The notes under the pieces: generated by a model
The model's input: the letters and a program-made list of their open reading frames with translations, nothing else
Told to the model about the DNA's origin: nothing
Database searches by the model: none
Origin: Moraxellaceae bacterium
GTDB lineage: Bacteria; Pseudomonadota; Gammaproteobacteria; Pseudomonadales; Moraxellaceae
Length of the DNA: 64,000 nt
Direction of reading: 5' to 3'
NCBI GenBank assembly: GCA_030680295.1
Contig: JAUXVU010000018.1
Location: 310,001 to 374,000, forward strand
Program-made: the position numbers and the translations under genes
Shown: positions 16,322 to 28,976 of the stretch, one piece after another
How the letters are laid out: every line of letters starts with the position of its first letter
How positions within the stretch are numbered: the first letter of the stretch is position 1

Positions 16322-16341
16322 GACCATATGAACAGTATATT
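16314..16341. promoter_or_regulatory. LexA operator overlapping umuD -10 and start codon
   Basis: Arms AATATACTG (16314-16322) and CAGTATATT (16333-16341) form a perfect 9-bp inverted repeat around a 10-base centre. The core TACTG-N10-CAGTA matches the E. coli-type LexA box architecture; the inner half-site reads CTGA rather than CTGT on the left and ACAG on the right. LexA bound here would cover the -10 element, start site and initiation codon of umuD. Confidence 0.85.
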
Positions 16342-16759
16342 CGCTCAATTAGTAGAAGTCCCGTCCAAACAGCCCTTGCCATTGTTTGATGGTCATGTGC
16401 CGGCGGGTTTCCCATCACCAGCTGCTGACTATGTGCAAAAGCGCATCGACTTAAATGAGCGCTTGGTGATGCATCCGGCGGCGACTTTTTTTGTCCGTGC
16501 GTCTGGTGAGTCCATGCACGATGTTGGCATCTTAGATGGTGCCATTTTGATTGTGGATGCAGCGCTTAAACCCACGTCTGGCGATATTGTGGTGGCGTTG
16601 GTGGACGGCCAGTACACAGTGAAACGACTGATTAAAACAGCGCAAGGTTTTGAGTTGCATGCGGCGAATCGATACATGGCATATCCCATTATTGCACCCA
16701 GTTCAGAGCTGCAAATTTTTGGTGTGGTAACCGCACATATTGTTGAGCACAGGCGCTAA
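16328..16759 (+). CDS. umuD: Error-prone DNA polymerase V accessory protein UmuD
   Basis: A 143-residue LexA/UmuD-type S24 serine peptidase that self-cleaves under RecA filament stimulation to form UmuD'. The predicted cleavage site is Ala26-Gly27 (VPAGFPSPAADYV; E. coli has Cys24-Gly25). The catalytic dyad is Ser62 (ASGESMHD) and Lys99 (YTVKRL). It shares high visible similarity with E. coli UmuD from FPSPAADYVEQR onward. umuC begins 4 bases after its stop. Expression is expected to be SOS-controlled through the LexA operator that overlaps the start. Confidence 0.96.
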   Translation: MNSIFAQLVEVPSKQPLPLFDGHVPAGFPSPAADYVQKRIDLNERLVMHPAATFFVRASGESMHDVGILDGAILIVDAALKPTSGDIVVALVDGQYTVKRLIKTAQGFELHAANRYMAYPIIAPSSELQIFGVVTAHIVEHRR

Positions 16760-16763
16760 CGTC

Positions 16764-18035
16764 ATGCCAGTGTATGCACTTGTTGATGCCAATAATTTCT
16801 ATGCCACCTGCGAAAAAATCTTTGCCCCGGAATTAATGGATAAACCCTTAGTGGTGTTATCTAACAATGACGGCTGCATCGTCGCACGCTCTGCAGAGGC
16901 AAAAGCGTTAGGTATTCCCATGGCCGCACCGATTCATCAGCATCGTCATTTTTGTCAGCAGCATGGTGTGGTCATTAAAAGCTCGAACTACACCTTATAT
17001 GGCGATATGAGTGCGCGCATGTTGTCAATTTTGCAAGACATGTGTCCGCGCGTGGAAAGCTACAGCATTGATGAGTCATTTTTAGATATGGCGGGTTTTC
17101 CCGACATCACCAAATACGCCTATGAGATTCGGCGCCAGCTGCGTCGGCAAGTCAAACTCAGCTGTGGTATTGGTATTGGGCCAACTAAAACCTTGGCAAA
17201 GTTTGCTAATCACATTGCCAAAAACCAATTGTATTGGGGTGGCGTCTTTAATGCGCTTGATCATCCCAGCGATATGCTTGATGCCTTAATGGCGCAATAT
17301 CCGGTGTCGGAAGTATGGGGAGTGGGGCGGCGTTTAACCGTGCGTTTAAATGCTGATGGCATCAATACCGTGTTGGATTTAAAGCACTGCGGCCCCATTG
17401 CTATTCGCAAACGCTACGGCATTGTGTTGGAAAAAACGGTGCGTGAGCTTAACGGTGAGTCCTGCTTAGCCATTGCCGAGGTGGGCGAGCCTAGACAACA
17501 GATTATGGCCTCACGCTCATTTGGCACAGTGACCCAAGATGTGGATGCCATTAAAACAGCTATTTGCCATCACGTGAGTCGTGCTGCGGAAAAACTGCGC
17601 CAGCAACACAGTGTGGCGCAGCATGTGTATGTGATGGTTCGCACCAACCCGTTTCGTGATCAGGATGTGCCTTATCGGCGTACTACGCTGGTGCCGTTGG
17701 CATATCCTTCAGCAGATACGGCTATTTTGATGTCGGCTGCTTTAGCGGGTTTGCAGCAGATTTTTAGGCCGGGTCTGAAATATCACAAATGCGGCGTCAT
17801 GTTGGGTCAGATTGCGCCAGTGGGGAATGTGCAGCCGGATCTTTTTTCGCCATCAGATGACCCTAAACGCCTTCGCTTAATGGCGTTGATGGATAACATT
17901 AACCGTGTGCATGGTAGCAATATGTTGCGTTTTGCCAGCTTGGATCTGAGTAATAGCTGGCGCATGCGGGCAGGGGGGCGATCACCGTGTTACACCACCG
18001 ACTGGCGTGCCTTGCCGGTGGTGTTTTGCCGTTGA
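16764..18035 (+). CDS. umuC: DNA polymerase V catalytic subunit UmuC
   Basis: A 423-residue Y-family translesion polymerase, matching the E. coli UmuC length (422). Catalytic motifs are YALVDANNFYATCEK at the N-terminus (metal-binding Asp8) and YSIDESFLDM (Asp-Glu pair). The thumb and little-finger regions follow. The ATG at 16764 is chosen because the protein then begins MPVYALVD like its relatives; the in-frame upstream codons overlap umuD. It forms pol V with two UmuD' subunits and is translated from the umuDC message. Confidence 0.96.
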   Translation: MPVYALVDANNFYATCEKIFAPELMDKPLVVLSNNDGCIVARSAEAKALGIPMAAPIHQHRHFCQQHGVVIKSSNYTLYGDMSARMLSILQDMCPRVESYSIDESFLDMAGFPDITKYAYEIRRQLRRQVKLSCGIGIGPTKTLAKFANHIAKNQLYWGGVFNALDHPSDMLDALMAQYPVSEVWGVGRRLTVRLNADGINTVLDLKHCGPIAIRKRYGIVLEKTVRELNGESCLAIAEVGEPRQQIMASRSFGTVTQDVDAIKTAICHHVSRAAEKLRQQHSVAQHVYVMVRTNPFRDQDVPYRRTTLVPLAYPSADTAILMSAALAGLQQIFRPGLKYHKCGVMLGQIAPVGNVQPDLFSPSDDPKRLRLMALMDNINRVHGSNMLRFASLDLSNSWRMRAGGRSPCYTTDWRALPVVFCR

Positions 18036-18057
18036 TGGTGCAGAAATAGCGTAGCTG

Positions 18058-18687
18058 TCATCGTGAGTCGATACCTACGTGCGATTGAGGCTCTGGGTTG
18101 GTTTGTAAGTAGGCTAAGATCATTTCAATTAGCCCATTTTCAATATCTTTTTCACGCCACATTGAGTTGTTTTGACTAATAAGGCGGACCATCGTGAAAA
18201 TTGTGCTGTTGACGATGATGAAAATCCGCACCTCAAGATCGTCGATAGGGTACTCACGATAGTATTTTAAAAAGTAGATACGTGAGAGTTCTAAAAAGTG
18301 TTGTTGTAGGGCATTAGCGACATTATCAGCTGGCAGTCGATACCAGTTTCTGGCGAGTTCAAGATAAAGCCCATTTCGCGAATTCAGCATGGTAAAGCCG
18401 AAATGGATTGCACCTGTGACAAGGTTGCGAAGTGAGCTTAGCTCGTTAATTGGGAGCTTTTTCAAGCCCACCCCAATGTCATCGGCCATCTTGTTCATCA
18501 GTGCTTCAATAAGCTCTTCTTTACTGCTGAAATATTGATACAGCGAGCCCACACTGACGTTGGCAAGCTCTGCAATCCGCGAAGTTGTCGTGAAATCTAA
18601 TCCTTTTTCGATGATACAGCGCTCTGTGGCATCGATTAGGGTGTCAATCATCTGCCGTGATCGTTCTTGCTTTGGTGACTTTCTCAT
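18058..18687 (-). CDS. TetR-family repressor, probable local regulator of the oxidation cluster
   Basis: A 209-residue TetR-family protein. The N-terminal helix-turn-helix is visible at about residues 25-60: FTTTSRIAELANVSVGSLYQYFSSKEEL. The C-terminal ligand domain is not assignable by eye. AAGG lies 8 bases before the ATG at 18687. The gene is divergent from the MpaB-family oxygenase, and the 87-base gap holds a 33-bp triple half-site operator that recurs at 23998-24030. That pattern makes it the likely repressor of all four flanking units. TetR regulators beside reductase/desaturase pairs (DesT of Pseudomonas aeruginosa, which senses acyl-CoA) are the closest known precedent. Confidence 0.88.
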   Translation of the reverse strand: MRKSPKQERSRQMIDTLIDATERCIIEKGLDFTTTSRIAELANVSVGSLYQYFSSKEELIEALMNKMADDIGVGLKKLPINELSSLRNLVTGAIHFGFTMLNSRNGLYLELARNWYRLPADNVANALQQHFLELSRIYFLKYYREYPIDDLEVRIFIIVNSTIFTMVRLISQNNSMWREKDIENGLIEMILAYLQTNPEPQSHVGIDSR

Positions 18688-18700
18688 TATTTAAGCCTTA

Positions 18701-18733
18701 AAAGCGAATTGAATGCGAATACATATTCGCATT
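18701..18733. promoter_or_regulatory. Operator for the TetR regulator, copy 1
   Basis: The site holds three half-sites: GCGAAT at 18704-18709, GCGAAT at 18715-18720 and the inverted ATTCGC at 18725-18730. The last two form a palindrome with 10-bp arms AATGCGAATA / TATTCGCATT (18712-18733). It lies between tetR and the divergent oxygenase gene. Read on the opposite strand, 23998-24030 is identical at 28 of 33 positions, including half-site spacing. Confidence 0.8.
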
Positions 18734-18774
18734 ATCGTCTGGAATGAACAACTATTTCAGTACGAGGAACAGTA

Positions 18775-20010
18775 ATGTTAAAGGCTCAGGCAAGACCAAT
18801 ACCGCTACGTGCTCGCCCGTTTGAAAAAACGCACGTTACAACCCCTGTATGGTTAAAACTAATCATAGGCCGTGAGTTGGCGCCTAGCCGCGAAGAGTAT
18901 AACCACGTGGTTGATGCGCTCTGGGATGGTGACTTTGCCATGGATAGATTGGTGGAGTGGATGTTCAAATATGGGCCAAAACAAGCTCGTGAACTTTTTC
19001 AGCAAGCGCTAGACGAGGGCTTGGAGTCAGTTGAAAACTGCCCTGAAGAATTGAGTGACTTTTTCAAAACATTAGATTCTCCGCCAGACTGGATTGATCA
19101 AAGCTTAATTCGAGAGGGAGCTCAATTTATTCACGGCACAGGCCTGACCTCGGCCTATGTTTTGCGTGACTTAGCGCTCATGGGTGGTTATCTGCTTTCA
19201 GGTTTTAATCAATCATTAGTGATGACAGGCGCACTTAATAATGGCACCTCACGTCGCGTAGCAGAAACCGGCAAATGGTGGATGGACTGTACCGAGCCTA
19301 CTGGCCTGAGTCGCTTTGGCGATGGCTTCAAGTCGACACTGCATGTCCGCTTAATTCATGGTTTAGTGCGCCGAAACTTAACCTCTAAAACCGAATGGGA
19401 TCACGAAAAATGGGGCCTTCCACTTAGTCAAATCGATATGGTTGCGACCTATTTAGGCTTTAGTGTGGTGATGTTAGGAGGCCTTCGTAAGCTGGGTATT
19501 CCAGTGGGTTCGCGTGAATCAAAGGCTGTGATGCACCTATGGGCTTATGCGTGCTGGCTTATGGGCGTAGAGCCTAAGTGGTTAGTCCAAACAGAGCGCG
19601 AAGGCGTGGTTTTACTGCAACACACGTTTATGACGCAGAGTCGCCCAGACTGGACTAGCCGAGAATTAGCACAAGCACTGGCTAATGAACCTAAAGAGCG
19701 CAGTTATAAGCATTTCGCCAGCGTAAAGCGGTGGCTTACCTACCATCAGCATCTCAGCATCAGCCAGTACTTCCTAGGTACTAAAAAGTTAGAGCAACTA
19801 GGTTTGCCCAATAACATTACCTCTTGGTATGCGGTGATTAGTACGCCACCGCGCTTTGTATTTTATGCCAGCTGCCGATTGATTCCTGGCTTGCATAAGC
19901 AGCAGCAAATTAAAGGACGCAAACAGCAACTAGCCACACTTGCTTCTATGTTTGGTGAGATGGAGCAGCGTGTGATCAAACCCGATGAGAAACACCCTGC
20001 ACATATTTAA
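18775..20010 (+). CDS. MpaB/Lcp-like oxygenase (DUF2236 family)
   Basis: A 411-residue protein of the oxygenase MpaB / latex-clearing-protein superfamily (DUF2236), whose characterised members are haem-b enzymes that cleave carbon-carbon double bonds of isoprenoid chains. Family-typical elements include DLALMGGYLLSGFNQSLV, RVAETGKWWMDCTEP and the histidine/arginine motif STLHVRLIHGLVRR, a likely haem-site region. GAGGAAC precedes the ATG. It is first in an operon with a P450, an SDR and a crotonase. The substrate is unknown; an unsaturated lipid or terpenoid is inferred from neighbours. Family call is good, activity untested. Confidence 0.8.
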   Translation: MLKAQARPIPLRARPFEKTHVTTPVWLKLIIGRELAPSREEYNHVVDALWDGDFAMDRLVEWMFKYGPKQARELFQQALDEGLESVENCPEELSDFFKTLDSPPDWIDQSLIREGAQFIHGTGLTSAYVLRDLALMGGYLLSGFNQSLVMTGALNNGTSRRVAETGKWWMDCTEPTGLSRFGDGFKSTLHVRLIHGLVRRNLTSKTEWDHEKWGLPLSQIDMVATYLGFSVVMLGGLRKLGIPVGSRESKAVMHLWAYACWLMGVEPKWLVQTEREGVVLLQHTFMTQSRPDWTSRELAQALANEPKERSYKHFASVKRWLTYHQHLSISQYFLGTKKLEQLGLPNNITSWYAVISTPPRFVFYASCRLIPGLHKQQQIKGRKQQLATLASMFGEMEQRVIKPDEKHPAHI

Positions 20011-20045
20011 GTGGTGCGAAATTAATTGGATCTTTGAGGATTATT

Positions 20046-21395
20046 ATGTTTCCACTCTATTTGTTTGAGTCACCCTCAGCACGGTATTTAAAAGATCATC
20101 TGCCAGGAGAAAGTGGCTTGCCGTTACTGGGTCACAGCATGGGTTTCTTATATCGCCCAATCGATATGGCACTTGAATTAGAAGCAAAACATGGATCTGC
20201 TTTTTGGGTATCAATTTTTGGCATGACGGCAGTCATGATGGTTGGGCCAGAAGCAAATCAACTGGTTTTACGCAATCAGGACGCTGCTTTTTCAAATCAC
20301 CAAGGCTGGGAATTTTTTATTGGTAAGTTTTTTAAGCGTGGCATCATGTTGTTGGATTTCGATGAACATCGATTCCATCGAGGTATTATGCAAGCAGCGT
20401 TTAAAAAGCCCGTCATGATGCAATATTTGCTGCGAATGAATCCGGCAATAAGTCATGGCATTGATCGTTGGAAACCTAGCAAGACATTCTATGTTCACCC
20501 TCATATAAAACAGCTGACCTTGGATATTGCGACTGATGTGTTTATGGGGGAGCGTTTGGGGCGTGATGCCAACCGTATTAATAAAGCCTTTGTCGATTGC
20601 GTATTAGCTGGTACAGCACTTATACGGTTTTCAGTGCCGGGTGGGCGTTGGCGTCGTGGATTAGAAGCAAGACGTGTACTGGAAGAATTTTTTCGAACAC
20701 GTATTGCTGACCGGCGTGCTAATCCCGGTGATGACTTGTTTAGCCGCCTATGCCTTGCAGAGGATGAGTCAGGCCAACGCTTTAGTGATGAAGATGTTGT
20801 GAATCACATGATATTTTTGATGATGGCAGCACACGACACAACAACTGTGACGCTATCTGCAATGTTTTATTTCTTGGCCAAAAACCCTGACTGGCAAGAA
20901 AAAGTACGCAAGCAATCTTTGGCATTAGATAAGTCATACCTAGACTACGAAGACTTGCCTGAACTTAGCCAACTGGGTCTTGTTATGAAAGAGTCACTAC
21001 GCTTGATATCTCCTGTGCATGGTATTCCGCGTCGGACAGTAAAAGAGGTGGAGTTTGGCGGCTTAAAAATTCCTGCAGGCACATTCATCATGGTCAGTCC
21101 TTTTGTGACACATCACATGCAGAAATGGTGGCCCAAGCCTGAGCACTTTGATCCTGAGCGCTTTTCTGATGAGCGCCAAGAGAACAAAAATCATCCGTAT
21201 CAATATGTGCCTTTTGGTGGTGGTGCACATATGTGTATTGGTCTTCATTTTGCCGAAATGCAAGTAAAAACCATAATGCATCAAGTGCTTAGAAAGTATC
21301 GATGGAGTGTTGCTGCAGACTATGAAATGCCAATTAACTTCACTACCTTACCTGGCCCTAAAGATAAATTACCGGTTCGACTAACGTGTTTGTAA
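20046..21395 (+). CDS. Cytochrome P450 monooxygenase
   Basis: A 449-residue soluble bacterial cytochrome P450. The oxygen-activation helix reads MMAAHDTTTVT, the ExxR motif is KESLR, and the haem-binding loop is FGGGAHMCIG with the thiolate ligand Cys397. The ATG at 20046 follows GAGGA; a TTG at 20034 in the same frame is less likely. The pattern resembles CYP51/CYP120-like enzymes acting on lipids, sterols or retinoids more than camphor-type P450s. No dedicated ferredoxin gene lies next to it; the reductase/2Fe-2S fusion encoded at 24151 under the same operator could supply electrons. It is second in the four-gene operon. Confidence 0.93.
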   Translation: MFPLYLFESPSARYLKDHLPGESGLPLLGHSMGFLYRPIDMALELEAKHGSAFWVSIFGMTAVMMVGPEANQLVLRNQDAAFSNHQGWEFFIGKFFKRGIMLLDFDEHRFHRGIMQAAFKKPVMMQYLLRMNPAISHGIDRWKPSKTFYVHPHIKQLTLDIATDVFMGERLGRDANRINKAFVDCVLAGTALIRFSVPGGRWRRGLEARRVLEEFFRTRIADRRANPGDDLFSRLCLAEDESGQRFSDEDVVNHMIFLMMAAHDTTTVTLSAMFYFLAKNPDWQEKVRKQSLALDKSYLDYEDLPELSQLGLVMKESLRLISPVHGIPRRTVKEVEFGGLKIPAGTFIMVSPFVTHHMQKWWPKPEHFDPERFSDERQENKNHPYQYVPFGGGAHMCIGLHFAEMQVKTIMHQVLRKYRWSVAADYEMPINFTTLPGPKDKLPVRLTCL

Positions 21396-21415
21396 TAACA
21401 AAGGAATCGTAGTCC

Positions 21416-22291
21416 ATGAATAAAAAAAACAACTCCCGTACCGTCTTCATTACCGGTTGTGATACGGGGATTGGTAACGCTACTGCATTGTATTTTCAGC
21501 AACATGGTTGGAATGTTTCGGCAACTATGTTGAATCCTGCAAATGAAACGACGCTCGTAACGTTGCCGCATGTGATATGCCCCAAATTAGATGTGACCGA
21601 TAAGGCCAGTATTGACGCAGCTATTACTGAAACGTTGCAAGAATTTGGACATATTGATGTCGTAGTAAATAATGCGGGATATGGACTGATTGGTGCATTT
21701 GAGACACTGAGTGATGAGCAGGTCCGTCGTCAATTTGATACCAATGTTTTTGGCTTAATGGATGTTTGTCGTGCGGTATTGCCGTACTTTCGTCAACAAA
21801 ATAGTGGAACGCTGATCAATGTATCGAGCATGGTTGGTCGCATTCCATTGCCTTTATATAGTCTCTATAACGCGAGTAAATTTGCTGTTGAAGGCTTTTC
21901 TGAAGGCCTAATTTATGAGCTTGAGCCATTCAATATTCGTATTAAGTTGATTGAGCCCGGATCCGTTAAAACCGCTTTTTTTCAAGGCTCAAGTGATCGA
22001 GAAAACAGCACTGGCGAAAATGCCTACATAGCATTCAGCCAAGCTCAGTTAGCGGTAATGGACGAAATTGGTGCGAATGGCATTTCGAAAGAAACGGCTG
22101 CCGAAACCATTTTTAAGTCGGCAATAGATAATAGCAGTAGAGTTCGATACTCCGTAGGTATGGATGCCAAAGTGCTGATGGCCGCGCGTCGGTTGTTGCC
22201 AGATCCGGCCTTCATCCGGTTGATCAAAATCGGTTTAAGTCCATCATTATTTGCCAGCGCTCGGCGTCGGCTTTATCAGTTCCAGCGATAA
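21416..22291 (+). CDS. Short-chain dehydrogenase/reductase (classical SDR)
   Basis: A 291-residue NAD(P)-dependent oxidoreductase with a Rossmann fold. The cofactor motif TGCDTGIG is at about residues 14-21, NNAG follows at about 88, and the catalytic Ser/Tyr/Lys set is NVSSMVG with YNASK. The C-terminal extension after residue 250 is basic (ARRRLYQF). It is third in the operon, 20 bases after the P450, with AAGGAA before the ATG. Oxidation of an alcohol produced by the P450 or oxygenase is a natural role, inferred from context only. Confidence 0.92.
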   Translation: MNKKNNSRTVFITGCDTGIGNATALYFQQHGWNVSATMLNPANETTLVTLPHVICPKLDVTDKASIDAAITETLQEFGHIDVVVNNAGYGLIGAFETLSDEQVRRQFDTNVFGLMDVCRAVLPYFRQQNSGTLINVSSMVGRIPLPLYSLYNASKFAVEGFSEGLIYELEPFNIRIKLIEPGSVKTAFFQGSSDRENSTGENAYIAFSQAQLAVMDEIGANGISKETAAETIFKSAIDNSSRVRYSVGMDAKVLMAARRLLPDPAFIRLIKIGLSPSLFASARRRLYQFQR

Positions 22292-22306
22292 TATTGAGCT
22301 TATTTC

Positions 22307-23080
22307 ATGAATGATTTCACGTTAAATATAGATAGTCCTGTGGCAGCAGTGCGTCGTATTTCTTGGTCGCGCCCAGGCAAACACAATGCATTTACTTCAG
22401 AGATGTATGAGGCTATTTGTGAAGCTGTTTTGGCCGCCGGTACTGATAGTGCTGTGCGTGTGCTTTGGCTTACTGGCGAGGGTGGACATTTTAGTGCGGG
22501 CAATGATCTGGCTGAGTTTGCAAATGCGGAACTTAAATTTCCAGACGCGCCAGTCTTTCGACTATTGAAGGCAGTTTCGACTTTTACTAAGCCGTTAGTG
22601 ATGACGCCATCAGGCTCTGCAATTGGTATTGGTACTACATTGTGTTTGCACGCTGACTTTATATACTGCCAGCGTGATATTCGTTTCCAAATGCCATTTG
22701 TTTCGTTGGGGTTATGTCCAGAGGGCGGGTCTAGTTTACTAATCCCTCGCTTGGTTGGGCAGGCTAGAGCAATGTCATGGTTACTTTTAGGCACACCTAT
22801 CTTGGCTGATGAGGCCTTAGCGACAGGTTTGGTTAATGCGGTCAGTGAAACGGCAGAGCAATTAGAGCAAGAAACAATCGCTTTAGTGACTCGACTTGCT
22901 GAGTTACCAACAAATGCAGTGATTACCGCAAAGCGATTGATCAAAAGCCACATCAATGTACCGATGCAGGCGACGCTGCACACGGAAGGTATGCATTTCA
23001 CCGAACTACTCACCGGGTCTGATGTGCAGGAAGCAATCGCTGCATTTCGAGAGAAACGTAAACCGCGTTTTAATCAGTAA
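22307..23080 (+). CDS. Enoyl-CoA hydratase/isomerase (crotonase family)
   Basis: A 257-residue crotonase-fold enzyme acting on CoA thioesters. The oxyanion-hole elements are visible as GGHFSAGNDLAEF (residues about 56-70) and the second segment GSAIGIGTTLCLHADF. The acidic residue in PFVSLGLCPEGGSS matches the isomerase/hydratase glutamate position. It is last in the oxygenase operon, 15 bases after the SDR, and converges on the next SDR with 19 bases between. Presence of a CoA-ester enzyme suggests that the pathway substrate is, or becomes, an acyl-CoA. Confidence 0.9.
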   Translation: MNDFTLNIDSPVAAVRRISWSRPGKHNAFTSEMYEAICEAVLAAGTDSAVRVLWLTGEGGHFSAGNDLAEFANAELKFPDAPVFRLLKAVSTFTKPLVMTPSGSAIGIGTTLCLHADFIYCQRDIRFQMPFVSLGLCPEGGSSLLIPRLVGQARAMSWLLLGTPILADEALATGLVNAVSETAEQLEQETIALVTRLAELPTNAVITAKRLIKSHINVPMQATLHTEGMHFTELLTGSDVQEAIAAFREKRKPRFNQ

Positions 23081-23099
23081 CTGTCGGCCATTTACACGA

Positions 23100-23945
23100 T
23101 TAAAAAGTACCGATGTAGAAGTCGCGCTGAATTTGGTGAGCGTTCTCGGGCATATTGGCATAATGATCAAAGTCAGTTTCACCCAATGAACGCAGGACGT
23201 CCTCATCAAGCCAGTTGACGGTATCTGCAAAATGCTCACGCTGAGACAGCAGAGCAAAAGCAGCGTCGGCCATAATTAGCGGTTTGCGTGAAACTGCTAA
23301 TGCACTTTCACCTGCAGCAACACCTATAGCGGCAGTAGCAATGAGTGTCGCTGGCCATAATGTACGAATAGCGATATTTTTCCCTTTGAGTTCCTGTGAT
23401 GCGCCAAGGCTGAGTAATGTCATGCCATATTTGGTGGATGTGTATGGGGCAAATGCACCTAACCAACCGGGGTCAAGATTAATCGGCGGGCATAGATTAA
23501 TGATTTGGCCTTGGCTCTTTTCAAGGTGCGGCAAACATTCTCGCATGGTAATCAGCGGTGCTCTGGTGTTTAAGGCATGCATCAAGTCATAGCTCTTCGT
23601 ACTCGTTAACGCGAGTGGTGTAACGCCTAAATAACCTGCGTTATTAATGAGCACATCAATACTGCCAAAGTGGTTGTAGGTATCGCTAATGGCTTTGACT
23701 AACTGTGCTTCTTCTCGAGCATCAACAGCTAAGGGCAGGGCTTGACCACCGGCAGAAATGATTTCTTCAGCGACTGAGTGAATAGTGCCGGGCAGCTTAG
23801 CGTGTGGTTTGTCCGACTTTGCGGCAATAGCAATATTGGCACCTTCCTTTGCCAGTCGTAAGGCGATTTCTCGACCAATCCCACGACTACCTCCGGTCAT
23901 AAAAACCGTCCGATTACGCCACTGATTATTGCTAGAAACGCTCAT
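23100..23945 (-). CDS. HSDL2-like short-chain dehydrogenase
   Basis: A 281-residue SDR. Cofactor motif TGGSRGIG, the segment AAKSDKPHAKLPGTIHSVAEEI, and NNAG are characteristic of the hydroxysteroid-dehydrogenase-like protein 2 branch; the SCP2 sterol-carrier domain of longer relatives is absent. The catalytic Tyr/Lys is in YTSTKYG, but the usual active-site serine region reads NLCPPINL, as in that branch. GGAG lies 7 bases before the ATG at 23945, which I prefer to the ATG at 23963. It is divergent from the reductase/desaturase pair and shares operator copy 2. Substrates of this branch are poorly defined, probably fatty-acyl derivatives. Confidence 0.88.
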   Translation of the reverse strand: MSVSSNNQWRNRTVFMTGGSRGIGREIALRLAKEGANIAIAAKSDKPHAKLPGTIHSVAEEIISAGGQALPLAVDAREEAQLVKAISDTYNHFGSIDVLINNAGYLGVTPLALTSTKSYDLMHALNTRAPLITMRECLPHLEKSQGQIINLCPPINLDPGWLGAFAPYTSTKYGMTLLSLGASQELKGKNIAIRTLWPATLIATAAIGVAAGESALAVSRKPLIMADAAFALLSQREHFADTVNWLDEDVLRSLGETDFDHYANMPENAHQIQRDFYIGTF

Positions 23946-23997
23946 GTGTTTACTCCGAGACATCAGAAAATACGAACTACTGAAGAGTGGCCAGACT

Positions 23998-24030
23998 AAT
24001 GTGAATGTTTATTCGTATTCAATTCGCATT
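23998..24030. promoter_or_regulatory. Operator for the TetR regulator, copy 2
   Basis: Half-sites GTGAAT (24001-24006), ATTCGT (24011-24016) and ATTCGC (24022-24027) repeat the order and spacing of the site at 18701-18733 on the opposite strand, with 28 of 33 bases identical. It sits in the 205-base gap between the HSDL2-like gene and the divergent reductase/desaturase operon. The rest of that gap shows only AT-rich promoter-like sequence. Confidence 0.78.
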
Positions 24031-24150
24031 AAGCAATTTTTTAGCTGTGGCACTGTACTTAAAGCACAATAAAATCTTGACGGATAATTAGCTCAGTGTT
24101 AAAGCTCGATTAGCAAAGTAATAATTTACTCCACTAAGAAGAGATATATT

Positions 24151-25269
24151 TTGCAAACTCAAAACAGCGCTGATCATAAAAAAAGTCTGTTCGAGCGACT
24201 ATCGATAATTACCGATATGTTTGCTTATCCTCTCAAAACTTCCCATTACGTTGAACTAGTTAACCCGCTTTGGACCACCCATAAAATGCAGGCGCAGATT
24301 GTGTCTGTTTGGGATGAGACGAAGGATGCGCGAACGATTACGCTAAAGGCGGGTGCTAACTGGCGTATGCATCGAGCGGGCCAGCATGTGCGCGTCGGCA
24401 TTCCGGTCGATGGCATGCATTATACGCGAACCTACACCATCTCTTCCCCGCCTGAGCGTGATGACGGTTGTTTCACCATCACTGTAAAAGTCATTCAAGG
24501 CGGCCGTATATCGCGCCATATTGTTCGCAATCTTAAGGTTGGCGATTTTATTCCTGTGGGTTTGCCGCAAGGGGAATTTTACCTGCCAGATGCATCGCCT
24601 ATTCAGCCGCTCTTTATTACGGCGGGCAGTGGTATTACACCGGCGATGAGCATGATTCGTAGCCTCATTGCCCAGGAGCGTTTGCCAGATACGGTGCATA
24701 TACATTATGCGCCTCACGAGTTTGATGTGATTTTTGGTAAAGAGCTGCTCAAAATGAATGCTGAGCAAAAGTATTACCACTTGCATGAAGTGCATACGCA
24801 GAAGTATGGCGAGGAGCAGCGAGAGCAGTGCCACTTTAGTGTGGAGCAGCTCGAGCGCTTTTGCCCAGACTGGAAGGAGCGGGACTGTTATGCCTGTGGT
24901 CCAGCACCGCTATTAGCAGCGCTTGAGGCTACGTGGGAAGCGGCGGGATTATCGAGACGTCTGCATATTGAGCGCTTTCGTGCTGAGCTGGCCGTTATTC
25001 CTACTGACGCTGTCGGTGGAAAGGTCACTTTTGCCTCTAGTGGTATTTCAGTAAATGCCGATAGCGGGACGAATTTGCTGCGTATTGCCGAGGATGCTGG
25101 ATTAAACCCTCCGCATGGATGTCGTATGGGGATCTGTCACACCTGCAACACCACCTTGAAGTCTGGCTGTGTGCGAGACATGCGCAGTGGCAAGATTTTG
25201 AATGAAGTGGGTGCGACGGTGCAGACCTGTGTTTGTGCCGCAGCAGGTGACTGTGAGCTTGACCTTTAA
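24151..25269 (+). CDS. Ferredoxin reductase with C-terminal 2Fe-2S domain
   Basis: A 372-residue flavoprotein electron-transfer chain in one polypeptide. Residues about 45-150 form the FAD domain (RTYTISSPPE), residues about 155-270 the NAD(P)H domain (ITAGSGITPAMSMIRSL and YACGPAPLL), and the C-terminus is a plant-type 2Fe-2S ferredoxin with CRMGICHTC and the distal TCVC cysteine. The start is TTG at 24151 with AAGAAGAG upstream; the next ATG would remove conserved sequence. It is 18 bases before a fatty-acid desaturase, the same arrangement as desC-desB of Pseudomonas, so it most likely feeds the desaturase and possibly the P450. Confidence 0.92.
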   Translation: MQTQNSADHKKSLFERLSIITDMFAYPLKTSHYVELVNPLWTTHKMQAQIVSVWDETKDARTITLKAGANWRMHRAGQHVRVGIPVDGMHYTRTYTISSPPERDDGCFTITVKVIQGGRISRHIVRNLKVGDFIPVGLPQGEFYLPDASPIQPLFITAGSGITPAMSMIRSLIAQERLPDTVHIHYAPHEFDVIFGKELLKMNAEQKYYHLHEVHTQKYGEEQREQCHFSVEQLERFCPDWKERDCYACGPAPLLAALEATWEAAGLSRRLHIERFRAELAVIPTDAVGGKVTFASSGISVNADSGTNLLRIAEDAGLNPPHGCRMGICHTCNTTLKSGCVRDMRSGKILNEVGATVQTCVCAAAGDCELDL

Positions 25270-25287
25270 CAAACTGGAATAACCATT

Positions 25288-26475
25288 ATGGCAACTGTTA
25301 AGCGCTTACCGGTCGACCTAACTGATGCTCAGATTGATGAGTTCGGGCGTGAAATTGACCTGATTTATGATGAGGCGATTGCTTCTCGCGGCGCCAAAGA
25401 TCGTCAATACATCCTTAGGATAATTCGTACCCAGCGAAGTATGGCGTTGGGTGGCCGTATTCTGATGTACATCGGTTTGTTTTTCTTGCCAGCGTGGCCT
25501 CATGCCTTTGCAAGTTGGAGTGTGAGCCTAACGATCATCGGCTTAGGTGCTTTGTCTTTAGGCTTTGCCAAAATTCTAGAAAACATGGAAATTGCCCATA
25601 ACGTGCTACATGCACAATGGGACTGGATGAAAGACCCAGAAATTCATTCAAGTACCTGGGAGTGGGATACCAGTAGTCGCTCAGACCGTTGGATGCATTC
25701 ACATAATGTCGTCCATCACACATGGACCAATGTGATTGAAAAAGACTTAGATGTTGGTTACGGCATCATGCGGGTGACGCCAATGCAAAAATGGCATCCG
25801 TATTATTTATTGCAGCCGTTTGTATTCATTTTGCTGATGCTGAATTTTGGGCTTGGGATCTCTTTTCATGAGCAAGCAATTGATGACGCCATGAAAGGTA
25901 AAAAGAAGATTAGTGAACTAGGACCATTATTAAAAAGTATTGGCCAGAAGATTTGGGGCATGTTTCGCAAAGACTACATTATGTGGCCGGGCGCTGCTGC
26001 CTTGGTGGCCATTCCAATTTCTACCGTCATACCGGTTTCGCCATTAATGGTGTTTTTTCTGGTCGCCGGTGCGAATGCAATTGCCAATGTGATTCGTAAT
26101 ATTTGGGCATTTGTGATTATTTTCTGCGGACACTTTCCTGAAGGTGTCTACACCTTTACACCGGACCAGGTGGAAGGAGAATCAAAGGGGCAGTGGTATT
26201 TACGTCAGTTGTTAGGCTCAGCCAATATCAAAGGCGGTCGGCTATTTCATATTTTATCTGGCAACTTAAGCCATCAAATTGAGCATCATTTATTTCCAGA
26301 TCTTTGTAGTAACCGCTACCCCGAGGTTGCGCCGCGAGTGCAAGCCGTGGCCTCTCGTTTTGGCCTGCCTTATAACAAAGCGTCAATCTGGCGTCAGTTT
26401 GGTAGTACTTGGCTGAAAAATATTCGGCTAGCGTTTCCCGGCGGCAAGATGCCGCCAGAGATTGCAAGAGCGTGA
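25288..26475 (+). CDS. Membrane fatty-acid desaturase (acyl-CoA or acyl-lipid type)
   Basis: A 395-residue integral membrane di-iron desaturase. The three histidine boxes are HNVLHAQ, HSHNVVHH and HQIEHHLFPD, and hydrophobic segments flank them. The HQIEHH form is typical of front-end and DesB-like bacterial desaturases. It is co-transcribed with the upstream ferredoxin reductase. Introducing a double bond into saturated acyl chains would alter membrane fluidity or create the substrate for the double-bond-attacking enzymes encoded in the same regulon; the second idea is inference. Confidence 0.92.
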   Translation: MATVKRLPVDLTDAQIDEFGREIDLIYDEAIASRGAKDRQYILRIIRTQRSMALGGRILMYIGLFFLPAWPHAFASWSVSLTIIGLGALSLGFAKILENMEIAHNVLHAQWDWMKDPEIHSSTWEWDTSSRSDRWMHSHNVVHHTWTNVIEKDLDVGYGIMRVTPMQKWHPYYLLQPFVFILLMLNFGLGISFHEQAIDDAMKGKKKISELGPLLKSIGQKIWGMFRKDYIMWPGAAALVAIPISTVIPVSPLMVFFLVAGANAIANVIRNIWAFVIIFCGHFPEGVYTFTPDQVEGESKGQWYLRQLLGSANIKGGRLFHILSGNLSHQIEHHLFPDLCSNRYPEVAPRVQAVASRFGLPYNKASIWRQFGSTWLKNIRLAFPGGKMPPEIARA

Positions 26476-26511
26476 GCTCGTCGTCGTGGTTTTTATTACG
26501 GCAAGACTGGC

Positions 26512-27114
26512 TCACATGCCGTTTATAAACTCTGCTGAGTCAAAGCGTATCGTCGTTCGTAAGGGACGCATGGCTTGAGCATATTGTACTAACACCTCCA
26601 ACGCCCAGTCGGCACGAGCGCGGATACGTGCATCGGGTTCGTCGACAGCGTTATCACCATTGAGTACCTCGCCCACATGGCGCACGATAAGTTGTTCAGG
26701 CAAGTAACACAGTCGGCAATTTTTGTAGCTGGAAGCACGCAGCTCACTTAGTGGATAGGCTCCACCAAGGCCCGCTGATACGCCCACCAATAGCGCTGGT
26801 TTGTGCCCTAGTTCACGACGCCCAGCATAGATAAAAAAGTTCTTTAACGCCGGGCTGGCCATGCCGTGCCATTCAGGGCTGATCAGCACGACACCATCGG
26901 CCTCACGCAGCAGAGCGGCATAGTTGGCCCAAGTGCCGCTAGCATCTTCTGCCGGCCACAAGGGTAATGGCGTGGCCCCAAGATCAATCAGGCTAAGGTT
27001 TTCTGCTGTGCAGTAGCCCAGCTCGAGCAGGCGTTGGCGCAAGTAAGCGGCGACCTTGGCCGATTGGCTGGACGGCTGGCTGGAACCAGCCACTAACACT
27101 AACTTCAGGCTCAT
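26512..27114 (-). CDS. NAD(P)H-dependent FMN reductase family protein
   Basis: A 200-residue flavodoxin-like protein of the NADPH-dependent FMN reductase family. The N-terminal phosphate-binding loop is VAGSSQPSSQSAKVA, and the flavin/active-site segments VLISPEWHGMASPALKNFFIYAG and VGVSAGLGGAYPLSELR match the family (normally PEYN... and GxxGG). The histidine in place of the usual asparagine in PEWHG is slightly unusual. Its start overlaps the stop of the upstream hydroxylase gene by four bases (ATGA), so the two form an operon and it may supply reducing power to that enzyme or act as a quinone reductase. Confidence 0.85.
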   Translation of the reverse strand: MSLKLVLVAGSSQPSSQSAKVAAYLRQRLLELGYCTAENLSLIDLGATPLPLWPAEDASGTWANYAALLREADGVVLISPEWHGMASPALKNFFIYAGRRELGHKPALLVGVSAGLGGAYPLSELRASSYKNCRLCYLPEQLIVRHVGEVLNGDNAVDEPDARIRARADWALEVLVQYAQAMRPLRTTIRFDSAEFINGM

Positions 27115-27953
27115 TGCTTGGTTTTCTCAGTTTTCGTTGATTGACGGGTACGGACCAAAGGCCAAAACAACTCGTGTTGCCAACTGACAGGACTTAGGTT
27201 TTCCACGCCAAATGACGGGGGCCTTCGACGTGTGATTTTGGCAGTGCCATATAATATGTCCCAAAAGAATAGCAGATTACCAAAATTACCCTTGTAGTGA
27301 GTCACGCCATCATCAGCGTTTTGGCCGTGATGGGCAGCATGGGTTGATGGCGTCGAAATAGTGCGCTCCAACAGCCACATTAGGGGTTTCAGCGCATGAA
27401 TTTGGTAGAGCTTGTCATCCCAAGCGACACTGCTATGCGCAGCAAAAATTACTGACATCTTAATGATTAGATAAACGTAATAAACCTCGGCTAAGCCTAG
27501 ATAAATGAGTGTCCCAGACAACCAGATGCTGGGCATCAACAAGTAGTAGAAGCTGTTATTGCGGTAGACGATGCGGATGCTCATGTACGGCGCAGAATGG
27601 TGCGCACGGTGCAGGGAATATAACCATGGCACTCGGTGTGCCATGCGGTGCCACCAGTATTGCATCATGTCGTCGAACAGCAAAAACAGTGCGAAACCGA
27701 CCAACCAAGGCAAGCTACTAAGGGTGTCGCGAGCATTTGGCACCCATATATTAAGTAGTGTGTCGGTTAGAAAGAGCACTAGCGGGAACGTCAGACCCAG
27801 CAGCAAGCTTGAGCCGAATACTTCAATGGCGATATCACGCCATTGGCCCTTGGGTTGGCGGAAGCAGCCGTAGATCAGCTCCAGCAGGACAAATCCAAGA
27901 AAGATTGCACCAACCACAAGTGCGGGGTTGTTAGTGAAGGTTGTTGAGTTCAT
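27111..27953 (-). CDS. Sterol desaturase/fatty-acid hydroxylase family protein
   Basis: A 280-residue membrane di-iron enzyme of the fatty-acid hydroxylase superfamily. Several hydrophobic segments surround the histidine clusters WWHRMAHR, LHRAHH and HAAHHG, which match the HxxxH/HxxHH pattern. The ATG at 27953 is preceded by GAGG at 5 bases; an in-frame TTG at 27974 is less likely. It is coupled to the FMN reductase and divergent from an AraC-type regulator 72 bases away, which probably controls it. The substrate could be a fatty acid, carotenoid, sterol or alkylglycerol; position beside the lipid-oxidation regulon suggests a lipid. Confidence 0.87.
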   Translation of the reverse strand: MNSTTFTNNPALVVGAIFLGFVLLELIYGCFRQPKGQWRDIAIEVFGSSLLLGLTFPLVLFLTDTLLNIWVPNARDTLSSLPWLVGFALFLLFDDMMQYWWHRMAHRVPWLYSLHRAHHSAPYMSIRIVYRNNSFYYLLMPSIWLSGTLIYLGLAEVYYVYLIIKMSVIFAAHSSVAWDDKLYQIHALKPLMWLLERTISTPSTHAAHHGQNADDGVTHYKGNFGNLLFFWDILYGTAKITRRRPPSFGVENLSPVSWQHELFWPLVRTRQSTKTEKTKQ

Positions 27954-28025
27954 GTTAGCCTCGACAAGGCCCAATAGAGGTACTGGGCGACAGTCTTATA
28001 AGAAGCTAAACCGGCCTGAGGCGAC

Positions 28026-28976
28026 ATGCGCGAACTGGACAAAAATCCCCGAGAACTGGCCAAACTTCCTGTGCAGCGTTTTCATCGTGGCCCGCTTGGC
28101 CGTGTCCTTGAACGCTTTTTACAAAGTCACGTCAGCATCTCGTCAGATTTTAGCCTAGTTGCTTTGGAGCAACTTTGGCTAGCGGCCGTCAAACACGATC
28201 CAGCAATCGGCTTGCATTTATTTACCCAATTTACCCCTCAGGATTGGCACGTTTTAGTCCATCTTGGCCAGTACTGTGCCAATGTCGCTGAAGCTAATCG
28301 TTGTTGGGCGCGTTATGCTAGCCTAGCTTCGGATACCGACCAAGTACGCATCATTGAAGAGTCAGGCTGTATGGGTGTTGAGCTTCAGATTGATGCGCCG
28401 CCGCAACTGGCTCGCTTTTTAGCTGAGCATTATACGGTGATGGCAGTGACCCAAATGCGCCTTGGCACTGGCCAGCCGCAGCTGCAAGTTGCTGCGCAGT
28501 TTCGTCATGCGCGACCGGATTACCATGAGCTTTATAAACCTTGGTTTGGCGTAGATATTAAATTCGGTGCTGATCGTAATCTGTTGCTGTTCGATTCAGC
28601 CACGCAAGCTTTGCCAATGCGTAACCGACATGCTGGTATGGTCGAGGTGATTTGTCAGGAGCTGGATCGTCGTTTGGCTCGGCAACATCAGCTTGGTGGC
28701 TGGGCTGATAAAGTCGCAACCAGTGCCCGTCAAGCGTTGCAGCAGGGGCTAGTGCCGAGTCTAGAGAGCGTGGCAGAAAGTCTGCACCAGAGCCCACGTA
28801 CTTTGCGTAGGCGTTTAGAAGAACAAAATCTTAGTTTTCGCCAAGTGCTTGATATGTTGCGTGCTGAATTAGAGCAGCAATATGAGTTGCAAGGTTGTAG
28901 TCGAGCGCAGATCGGCGAGTTGCTAGGTTATAACGACACTGCTGCCTACCTGCATGCACGCAAACGCTGGTCATGA
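28026..28976 (+). CDS. AraC-family regulator with shortened C-terminus
   Basis: A 316-residue regulator with the N-terminal arabinose-binding-like domain of the OruR/GbuR type (residues about 20-200) and a C-terminal AraC helix-turn-helix pair (SLESVAESLHQSPRTLRRRLEE, then RAQIGELLGYNDTAAYLHARKRW). The protein stops right after KRWS, whereas relatives normally continue with about ten residues ending in a Pro-x-x-(Phe/Tyr)-Arg motif. Its stop is one base from the converging yaeQ stop. It is divergent from the hydroxylase/FMN reductase operon, its presumptive target. The short end may be tolerated or may weaken DNA binding. Confidence 0.85.
   Translation: MRELDKNPRELAKLPVQRFHRGPLGRVLERFLQSHVSISSDFSLVALEQLWLAAVKHDPAIGLHLFTQFTPQDWHVLVHLGQYCANVAEANRCWARYASLASDTDQVRIIEESGCMGVELQIDAPPQLARFLAEHYTVMAVTQMRLGTGQPQLQVAAQFRHARPDYHELYKPWFGVDIKFGADRNLLLFDSATQALPMRNRHAGMVEVICQELDRRLARQHQLGGWADKVATSARQALQQGLVPSLESVAESLHQSPRTLRRRLEEQNLSFRQVLDMLRAELEQQYELQGCSRAQIGELLGYNDTAAYLHARKRWS

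Follow-up and report, generated by a model that had tools for sequence, protein, structure and literature searches.

To our knowledge, few members of the family PF09995 (DUF2236), which includes Lcp and the fungal MpaB, have a known substrate. The DesT-DesC-DesB system of Pseudomonas is composed of a TetR-family regulator, an FAD/NAD/2Fe-2S reductase and a PF00487 desaturase. In Lcp, the Arg, Thr and His residues at the haem are essential or almost essential according to one report (PMC6311187), and another describes the enzyme as secreted (PMC4877957). The nitrile rubber oxygenase Nro1 of Gordonia belongs to the MpaB family, and its authors propose cleavage of carbon-carbon double bonds (C=C) and cite Purwani et al. 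2024 for bacterial haem alkene-cleaving oxygenases (PMC12724181). Here we analysed a stretch of 64,000 nucleotides (nt) from a Moraxellaceae bacterium (the window; GCA_030680295.1, contig JAUXVU010000018.1, positions 310,001 to 374,000), in which eight genes at 18058-26475 encode a TetR-type regulator (tetR), an MpaB-like oxygenase (mpaB), a cytochrome P450 (p450), two short-chain dehydrogenases (SDRs; sdr1 and sdr2), a crotonase-family protein, a reductase and a desaturase. The genome that holds the window (G000) is 2.6 Mb.

Through sequence comparison, we found an operator, its linkage to tetR, its target genes and the families of the enzymes behind it. The initial annotation had proposed a common operator type, and two copies in the window, at the tetR/oxygenase operon and at a second unit, bear this out. 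Aligned with its relatives, the operator was a directional element of 31 nt, GCGAATTGAATGCGAATAnnTATTCGCATTA, with three half-sites: a palindrome is preceded, at a distance of 11 nt, by a direct copy of the half-site, and TTGAAT stands between the two. Judged from its letters, this TTGAAT looks like the -35 element of the downstream gene. The longest inverted repeat of the region 17900-26600 joined the places of operator 1 and operator 2 (34 nt, 85%). With a scoring matrix built from 17/31 non-window rows of the operator alignment, operator 1 scored 55.7 bits and operator 2 scored 45.4 bits. No other place in the window exceeded 12.2 bits (the reverse of operator 1), and simulated sequence of 2.56 Mb gave at most 14.4 bits. 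Allowing at most three mismatches over the 29 specified positions, the own genome contained operators 1 and 2 only.

A simple 18-nt palindrome was also tried as the operator and was rejected. It matched the window at 18714-18731 (no mismatch) and 24000-24017 (three mismatches), and two such matches also occurred in 4 of 100 shuffled windows. With two mismatches, the reversed control gave two matches per strand in the own genome and the true pattern one, and reversed matches appeared in 5 of the 16 genomes searched. Taken by itself, this pattern was weak, and the 31-nt motif discriminated far better. The consensus promoter scan was uninformative (10 sites; shuffle mean 14.5, standard deviation 4.4).

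We scanned 390 genomes of the order with the 31-nt pattern at the same mismatch limit, and the reversed motif served as control. The operator was detected in 23 genomes and the control in none (0/390). All 22 other operator-bearing genomes had it between divergent tetR and mpaB, pointing at mpaB, and the window genome alone contained a second copy, pointing at sdr2. In one relative (L129/L153) TetR and MpaB are merely 37-38% identical to those of the window, and the operator still matched at 27 of the 29 positions.

A separate scan of 13 named relatives (reversed control 0/13) revealed 15 operator sites in ten genomes, eight before mpaB and seven before other genes. One of the mpaB sites had no tetR in sight (L175). 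Elsewhere the operator preceded a P450 gene next to tetR (L179), a flavin monooxygenase gene (L171) and, directly, sdr2 next to tetR (L172), and at L182/L184 it was located at a divergent pair, an OYE/FadH-type enzyme on one side and an SDR followed by a thiolase on the other. The genome of UBA8513 carried it directly before a ferredoxin-reductase-like gene, followed by a PF00487 desaturase and a thiolase (L181/L041), and also before an Fe-alcohol dehydrogenase gene that has thioesterase and aldehyde dehydrogenase genes behind it (L183/L041). Since the operator-bearing genes include Fe-alcohol dehydrogenase, thioesterase, aldehyde dehydrogenase, thiolase, flavin monooxygenase and OYE/FadH-type reductase, the theme of the targets would be oxidation and shortening of a hydrophobic chain. 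Second tetR-mpaB pairs with their own operator were observed in UBA8513 (G390, C29:165534, L176) and in G401 (C149:37865, L170).

In 35 loci we counted the genes that lie up to 9 kb from mpaB. The identity thresholds, chosen by us, were 29% for tetR, 45% for the SDRs and 50% for P450 and for a reductase or desaturase of the window type. Loci L054-L057 (distant mpaB), L058 (which shares a contig with L043) and L012-L040 (short loci) were excluded; several contigs end less than 9 kb from mpaB (e.g. L042, L051 and L153), and L045 and L053 resemble near copies. We found tetR in 32 loci (including L050, where it is 29% identical and lies on the opposite side of mpaB), p450 in 16, sdr1 in 13, sdr2 in four (L045, L046, L048 and L053, behind mpaB or mpaB-p450) and crotonase in one, at 33% identity. 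A CrtR-like PF00487 protein was encoded in nine and a ferredoxin-reductase-like protein in three, and neither the window-type reductase nor the window-type desaturase was found in any of the 35 at 50% identity or more. The co-occurrence that the initial annotation expected in relatives was therefore seen for tetR, mpaB, P450 and the SDRs, and not for the reductase-desaturase pair or with distant mpaB homologues.

The regulator of the window is presumably a TetR-type local repressor with a conserved operator in the promoter region common to regulator and target, and covariation suggests that TetR and operator belong together. All three half-sites differed in concert from the common form in L042, L043, L052, L076 and L077, and the two direct half-sites in L047 and L074. 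The TetR helix residues TTNH accompanied an AGT first half-site at seven distinct loci, and VDIAS/VNIAS accompanied non-GCG half-sites in three of these. In L042, MpaB, P450 and SDR1 were 63-69% identical to those of the window, TetR only 34%, and the operator was changed. The L042 contig, with an mpaB-p450-sdr1-desaturase operon, is filed as a metagenome-assembled genome of Pedobacter, which may reflect mis-binning or transfer.

The oxygenase matched the PF09995 domain with 75.3 bits (cut-off 23), and no NCBIfam model matched it at E 0.001. Its AlphaFold model (mean predicted local distance difference test score 87.1) aligned with Lcp (5o1m) over 334 residues (Z 29.9, root mean square deviation 3.4, 17% identity) and with trans-anethole oxygenase (8s1j) over 264 residues (Z 17.6, deviation 3.8, 10% identity). 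R161, T165 and H195 were invariant in 16/16 aligned sequences and matched R164, T168 and H198 of Lcp in the alignment with 5o1l/5o1m. The protein is thus predicted to be a PF09995 haem oxygenase with the Lcp fold, and C=C cleavage is its putative reaction.

We consider it rather probable that the locus is a TetR-repressed regulon, which hydroxylates an unsaturated lipid or isoprenoid, cleaves it at C=C and shortens it. We infer the repression with its sign, the ligand, the substrate and the order of steps as follows. TetR bound to the operator that covers the mpaB promoter would repress both tetR and mpaB-p450-sdr1-crotonase, and the second copy would let it repress sdr2; the lipophilic substrate or its acyl-CoA would release TetR. 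The P450 would hydroxylate, and the MpaB-like haem oxygenase would oxidatively cleave C=C of the unsaturated lipid or isoprenoid. The SDRs may interconvert the alcohol, aldehyde and ketone products, which the crotonase may feed into beta-oxidation. The reductase-desaturase pair may or may not share the TetR control. Oxidation and shortening had already been read into the locus by the initial annotation; the operator-linked regulator and oxygenase and the catabolic-looking targets in relatives agree with it, and the part given to the desaturase was not supported.

Several observations weigh against the regulon reading. The operator occurs just once in each of the 22 other genomes of the order-wide scan, and the mpaB promoter of L041 is without the first half-site (21/29). 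Near mpaB, tetR was missing in L046, L051 (where the contig starts inside mpaB) and L073; P450 was absent in 19, sdr1 in 22 and crotonase in 34 of the 35 loci, so the gene set of the window is not a fixed pathway. The excluded loci L054-L057 (mpaB 38-41% identical) contained none of the partner genes, and of the short loci L030-L040 (11 loci, mpaB 35-43%) only three contained tetR; the distant mpaB homologues stand mostly alone and the module therefore belongs to the closer mpaB clade. As to covariation, each TetR helix label corresponds to one change on the TetR tree, so that it is suggestive but cannot be read as a number of independent events. An exception is the Fe-alcohol dehydrogenase site of UBA8513: its first half-site is AGT, and the two TetRs observed in this genome (L041 and L176) are without TTNH. 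In the oxygenase, Glu164 replaces the distal haem Lys (Lcp K167) in 16/16 aligned sequences, and the chemistry may therefore differ from that of Lcp. K167 is a feature of Lcp, and the wider family is not known to require it; Glu164 therefore bars only the name Lcp. The pattern R..ET...H was also found in two of the six paralogue loci of the own genome (L004 and L006) through a simple motif scan, which means that the Glu form also occurs outside this operon.

The initial annotation had placed the reductase-desaturase pair in the regulon, in parallel with DesT. Orthologues of the reductase (E 1e-140 or better) were present in 15 of 381 genomes, the own genome included. The pair was conserved in relatives away from mpaB, and the operator was found before 0/14 of the orthologues in the 400 nt upstream (best 14-19 of 29 positions). 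With the DesT-type operator consensus, which we take to be GTGAACAnnTGTTCAC, a DesT-like palindrome was detected before 9 of the 14 orthologous pairs (12-13 of 14 positions; at least 270 nt upstream in four of them), and none was found in the 400 nt before the window pair, where the best place matched 9 of 14. By these counts, membership of the pair is not supported, and the parallel with DesT does not hold. Operator 2 was rejected as a promoter element of the pair, as this minus-strand site points the opposite way, toward sdr2.

The pair might nevertheless be a true member of the regulon, either with a desaturase which makes the bond that MpaB cuts or with a reductase which also feeds the P450, and to this possibility we give limited credence. 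Operator 2 sits in the intergenic region common to sdr2 and the reductase gene, but it ends 123 nt before the reductase start codon and faces away. The arrangement of UBA8513, with the operator directly before a reductase-like gene, a PF00487 desaturase and a thiolase, speaks for membership, as do PF00487 genes of the UBA8513 type near mpaB in the nine loci counted above; however, the UBA8513 desaturase as query did not match the window desaturase at E 1e-5 and therefore belongs to another subfamily. Also in favour of membership, the window pair is without the DesT-like box seen at many orthologous pairs. Eleven of the 14 other genomes with an orthologous reductase carry the 31-nt operator elsewhere (counted by eye, no statistical test), but ten of these eleven belong to family f43, in which 13 of the 17 genomes listed hold the operator anyway, so that kinship may explain the co-occurrence. 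The window pair could be under TetR control, although this is unproven, and UBA8513 keeps the idea alive. In sum, the link between regulator, operator and oxygenase is stronger, and the link to the desaturase weaker, than first annotated.

Two further reductase-desaturase pairs were located on contig C6 of the own genome, with desaturases 40-41% and reductases 28-32% identical to those of the window. One of them (G000:C6:767637-768437, L168) has two DesT-like boxes upstream, matching 13 and 11 of 14 positions in a scan without control, and is a candidate DesT-type locus of this genome; the other lies near C6:282-284 kb (L167).

The TetR model matched the structures of the acyl-CoA-binding FadR, DesT and FasR, and EthR and YvdT tie in the same list; because fatty-acyl regulators and EthR tie, the comparison names no ligand. 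The DesT structure 3lsj scored Z 16.5, tied with many TetR folds. Filing the window TetR as DesT was rejected. Sequence likeness to solved TetRs was mainly in the helix-turn-helix part (best 60 of 69 matches). The matches to FadR, DesT and FasR would suit membrane-lipid homeostasis, in which TetR senses acyl-CoA saturation as DesT does and the oxygenases serve to repair damaged unsaturated acyl chains, or to remove them, and not to support growth. This is improbable in our opinion, considering the ties with EthR and YvdT, operator targets in relatives that look catabolic (thiolase, aldehyde and alcohol dehydrogenases) and the two further pairs on C6, one with DesT-like boxes.

The best solved relative of the P450 was CYP120 (2ve3), followed by taxadiene 5-alpha hydroxylase and CYP51 chains in PDB. 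Against NCBIfam, the recurrent PF00487 gene near mpaB was weakly like the CrtR beta-carotene hydroxylase, and the L182 thiolase fragment behind the SDR matched a steroid thiolase model among others. These likenesses could indicate a steroid, carotenoid or apocarotenoid substrate instead of an acyclic lipid, but the NCBIfam ones fall far short of the curated cut-offs and resemblance to a P450 family does not establish the substrate, so we regard such a substrate as unlikely. A P450 paralogue of 58% identity (G000:C36:487254-488540; L148, L149) was observed with no mpaB context and no operator at three mismatches.

All eight open reading frames of the families named in the initial annotation were confirmed through an open reading frame check and the Pfam curated cut-offs (Table 1). 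Its four transcription units (tetR; mpaB-p450-sdr1-crotonase; sdr2; reductase-desaturase) are compatible with strand and spacing, the only basis of the division.

Table 1. Features of the tetR-mpaB locus in window coordinates, with Pfam domains above curated cut-offs (aa, amino acids)
Feature	Position	Strand	Length	Pfam	Remark
tetR	18058..18687	-	209 aa	TetR_N (2e-16)	presumed local repressor; TetR fold
operator/promoter 1	18704..18734	+	31 nt		three half-sites, toward mpaB; 29/29 specified positions
mpaB-like haem oxygenase (PF09995)	18775..20010	+	411 aa	MPAB_Lcp_cat	
cytochrome P450	20046..21395	+	449 aa	p450	
sdr1, short-chain dehydrogenase	21416..22291	+	291 aa	adh_short	
crotonase-family protein (enoyl-CoA hydratase/isomerase type)	22307..23080	+	257 aa	ECH_1	
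sdr2, short-chain dehydrogenase	23100..23963	-	287 aa	adh_short	NCBIfam PRK08278 subfamily above cut-off; operator 2 target
operator/promoter 2	23997..24027	-			toward sdr2; 26/29 specified positions
FAD/NAD/2Fe-2S reductase	24151..25269	+	372 aa	FAD_binding_6, NAD_binding_1, Fer2	regulon membership unproven
FA_desaturase family protein	25288..26475	+	395 aa	FA_desaturase	regulon membership unproven

Adjoining tetR, a UmuD/UmuC-like gene pair was recognised by eye at 16328-18035. Past the desaturase, the region 26512-28976 contained genes for an FMN reductase, a fatty-acid/sterol hydroxylase (PF04116) and a regulator of the AraC type that carries an Arabinose_bd domain. Genes resembling those for the hydroxylase and the AraC-type regulator (27-30% identity) were observed near mpaB in L047 and L074. 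PF09995 proteins can be numerous per genome, with seven matches here; together with ten PF00487 matches, they suggest that the own genome, small as it is, has many enzymes that oxidise lipids or hydrocarbons.

In the open-licence PMC literature on DUF2236/MpaB, titles and abstract openings gave no description of such a regulon, and the gene group may point to an as yet undescribed breakdown pathway, present in several environmental bacteria. With reservation, we might speculate that it represents an undescribed catabolic regulon of Pseudomonadales which is defined by the operator: a desaturase or P450 would prepare the substrate, an MpaB/Lcp-type haem oxygenase would cut the C=C of an isoprenoid or unsaturated lipid, and lineages would vary the oxidative and beta-oxidation genes behind the 31-nt switch. 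Regulator and switch would be exchanged as a unit between similar operons, as suggested by L042 with its similar enzymes, divergent TetR and changed operator. The conserved regulator and operator offer a handle, as a compound that relieves TetR is expected to be close to the substrate, and the partner enzymes of each genome can be listed from the operator. The C=C cutting of this family resembles ozonolysis and is relevant to biocatalysis, to the breakdown of rubber and terpenoids and to hydrocarbon turnover.

Compared with DesT-DesC-DesB, the locus likewise contains a TetR-family regulator and an FAD/NAD/2Fe-2S reductase adjoining a PF00487 desaturase, but its operator differs and its TetR travels with mpaB instead of the desaturase. 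With Lcp (5o1l/5o1m) and the fungal MpaB its oxygenase shares the fold, the PF09995/DUF2236 domain and the Arg, Thr and His haem residues; unlike Lcp, the window oxygenase has Glu for the distal Lys, is 17% identical and is encoded in a P450/SDR operon behind a TetR-linked operator. The trans-anethole oxygenase of Stenotrophomonas maltophilia, named for its alkene substrate, has the same fold; its structure 8s1j, which we presume to be that of Purwani et al. 2024, has a solved chain of 300 residues, compared with 411 here, at 10% identity. Nro1 is a membrane-bound actinobacterial enzyme with Lys (K71) at the place of Lcp K167, where the window oxygenase has Glu (PMC12724181).

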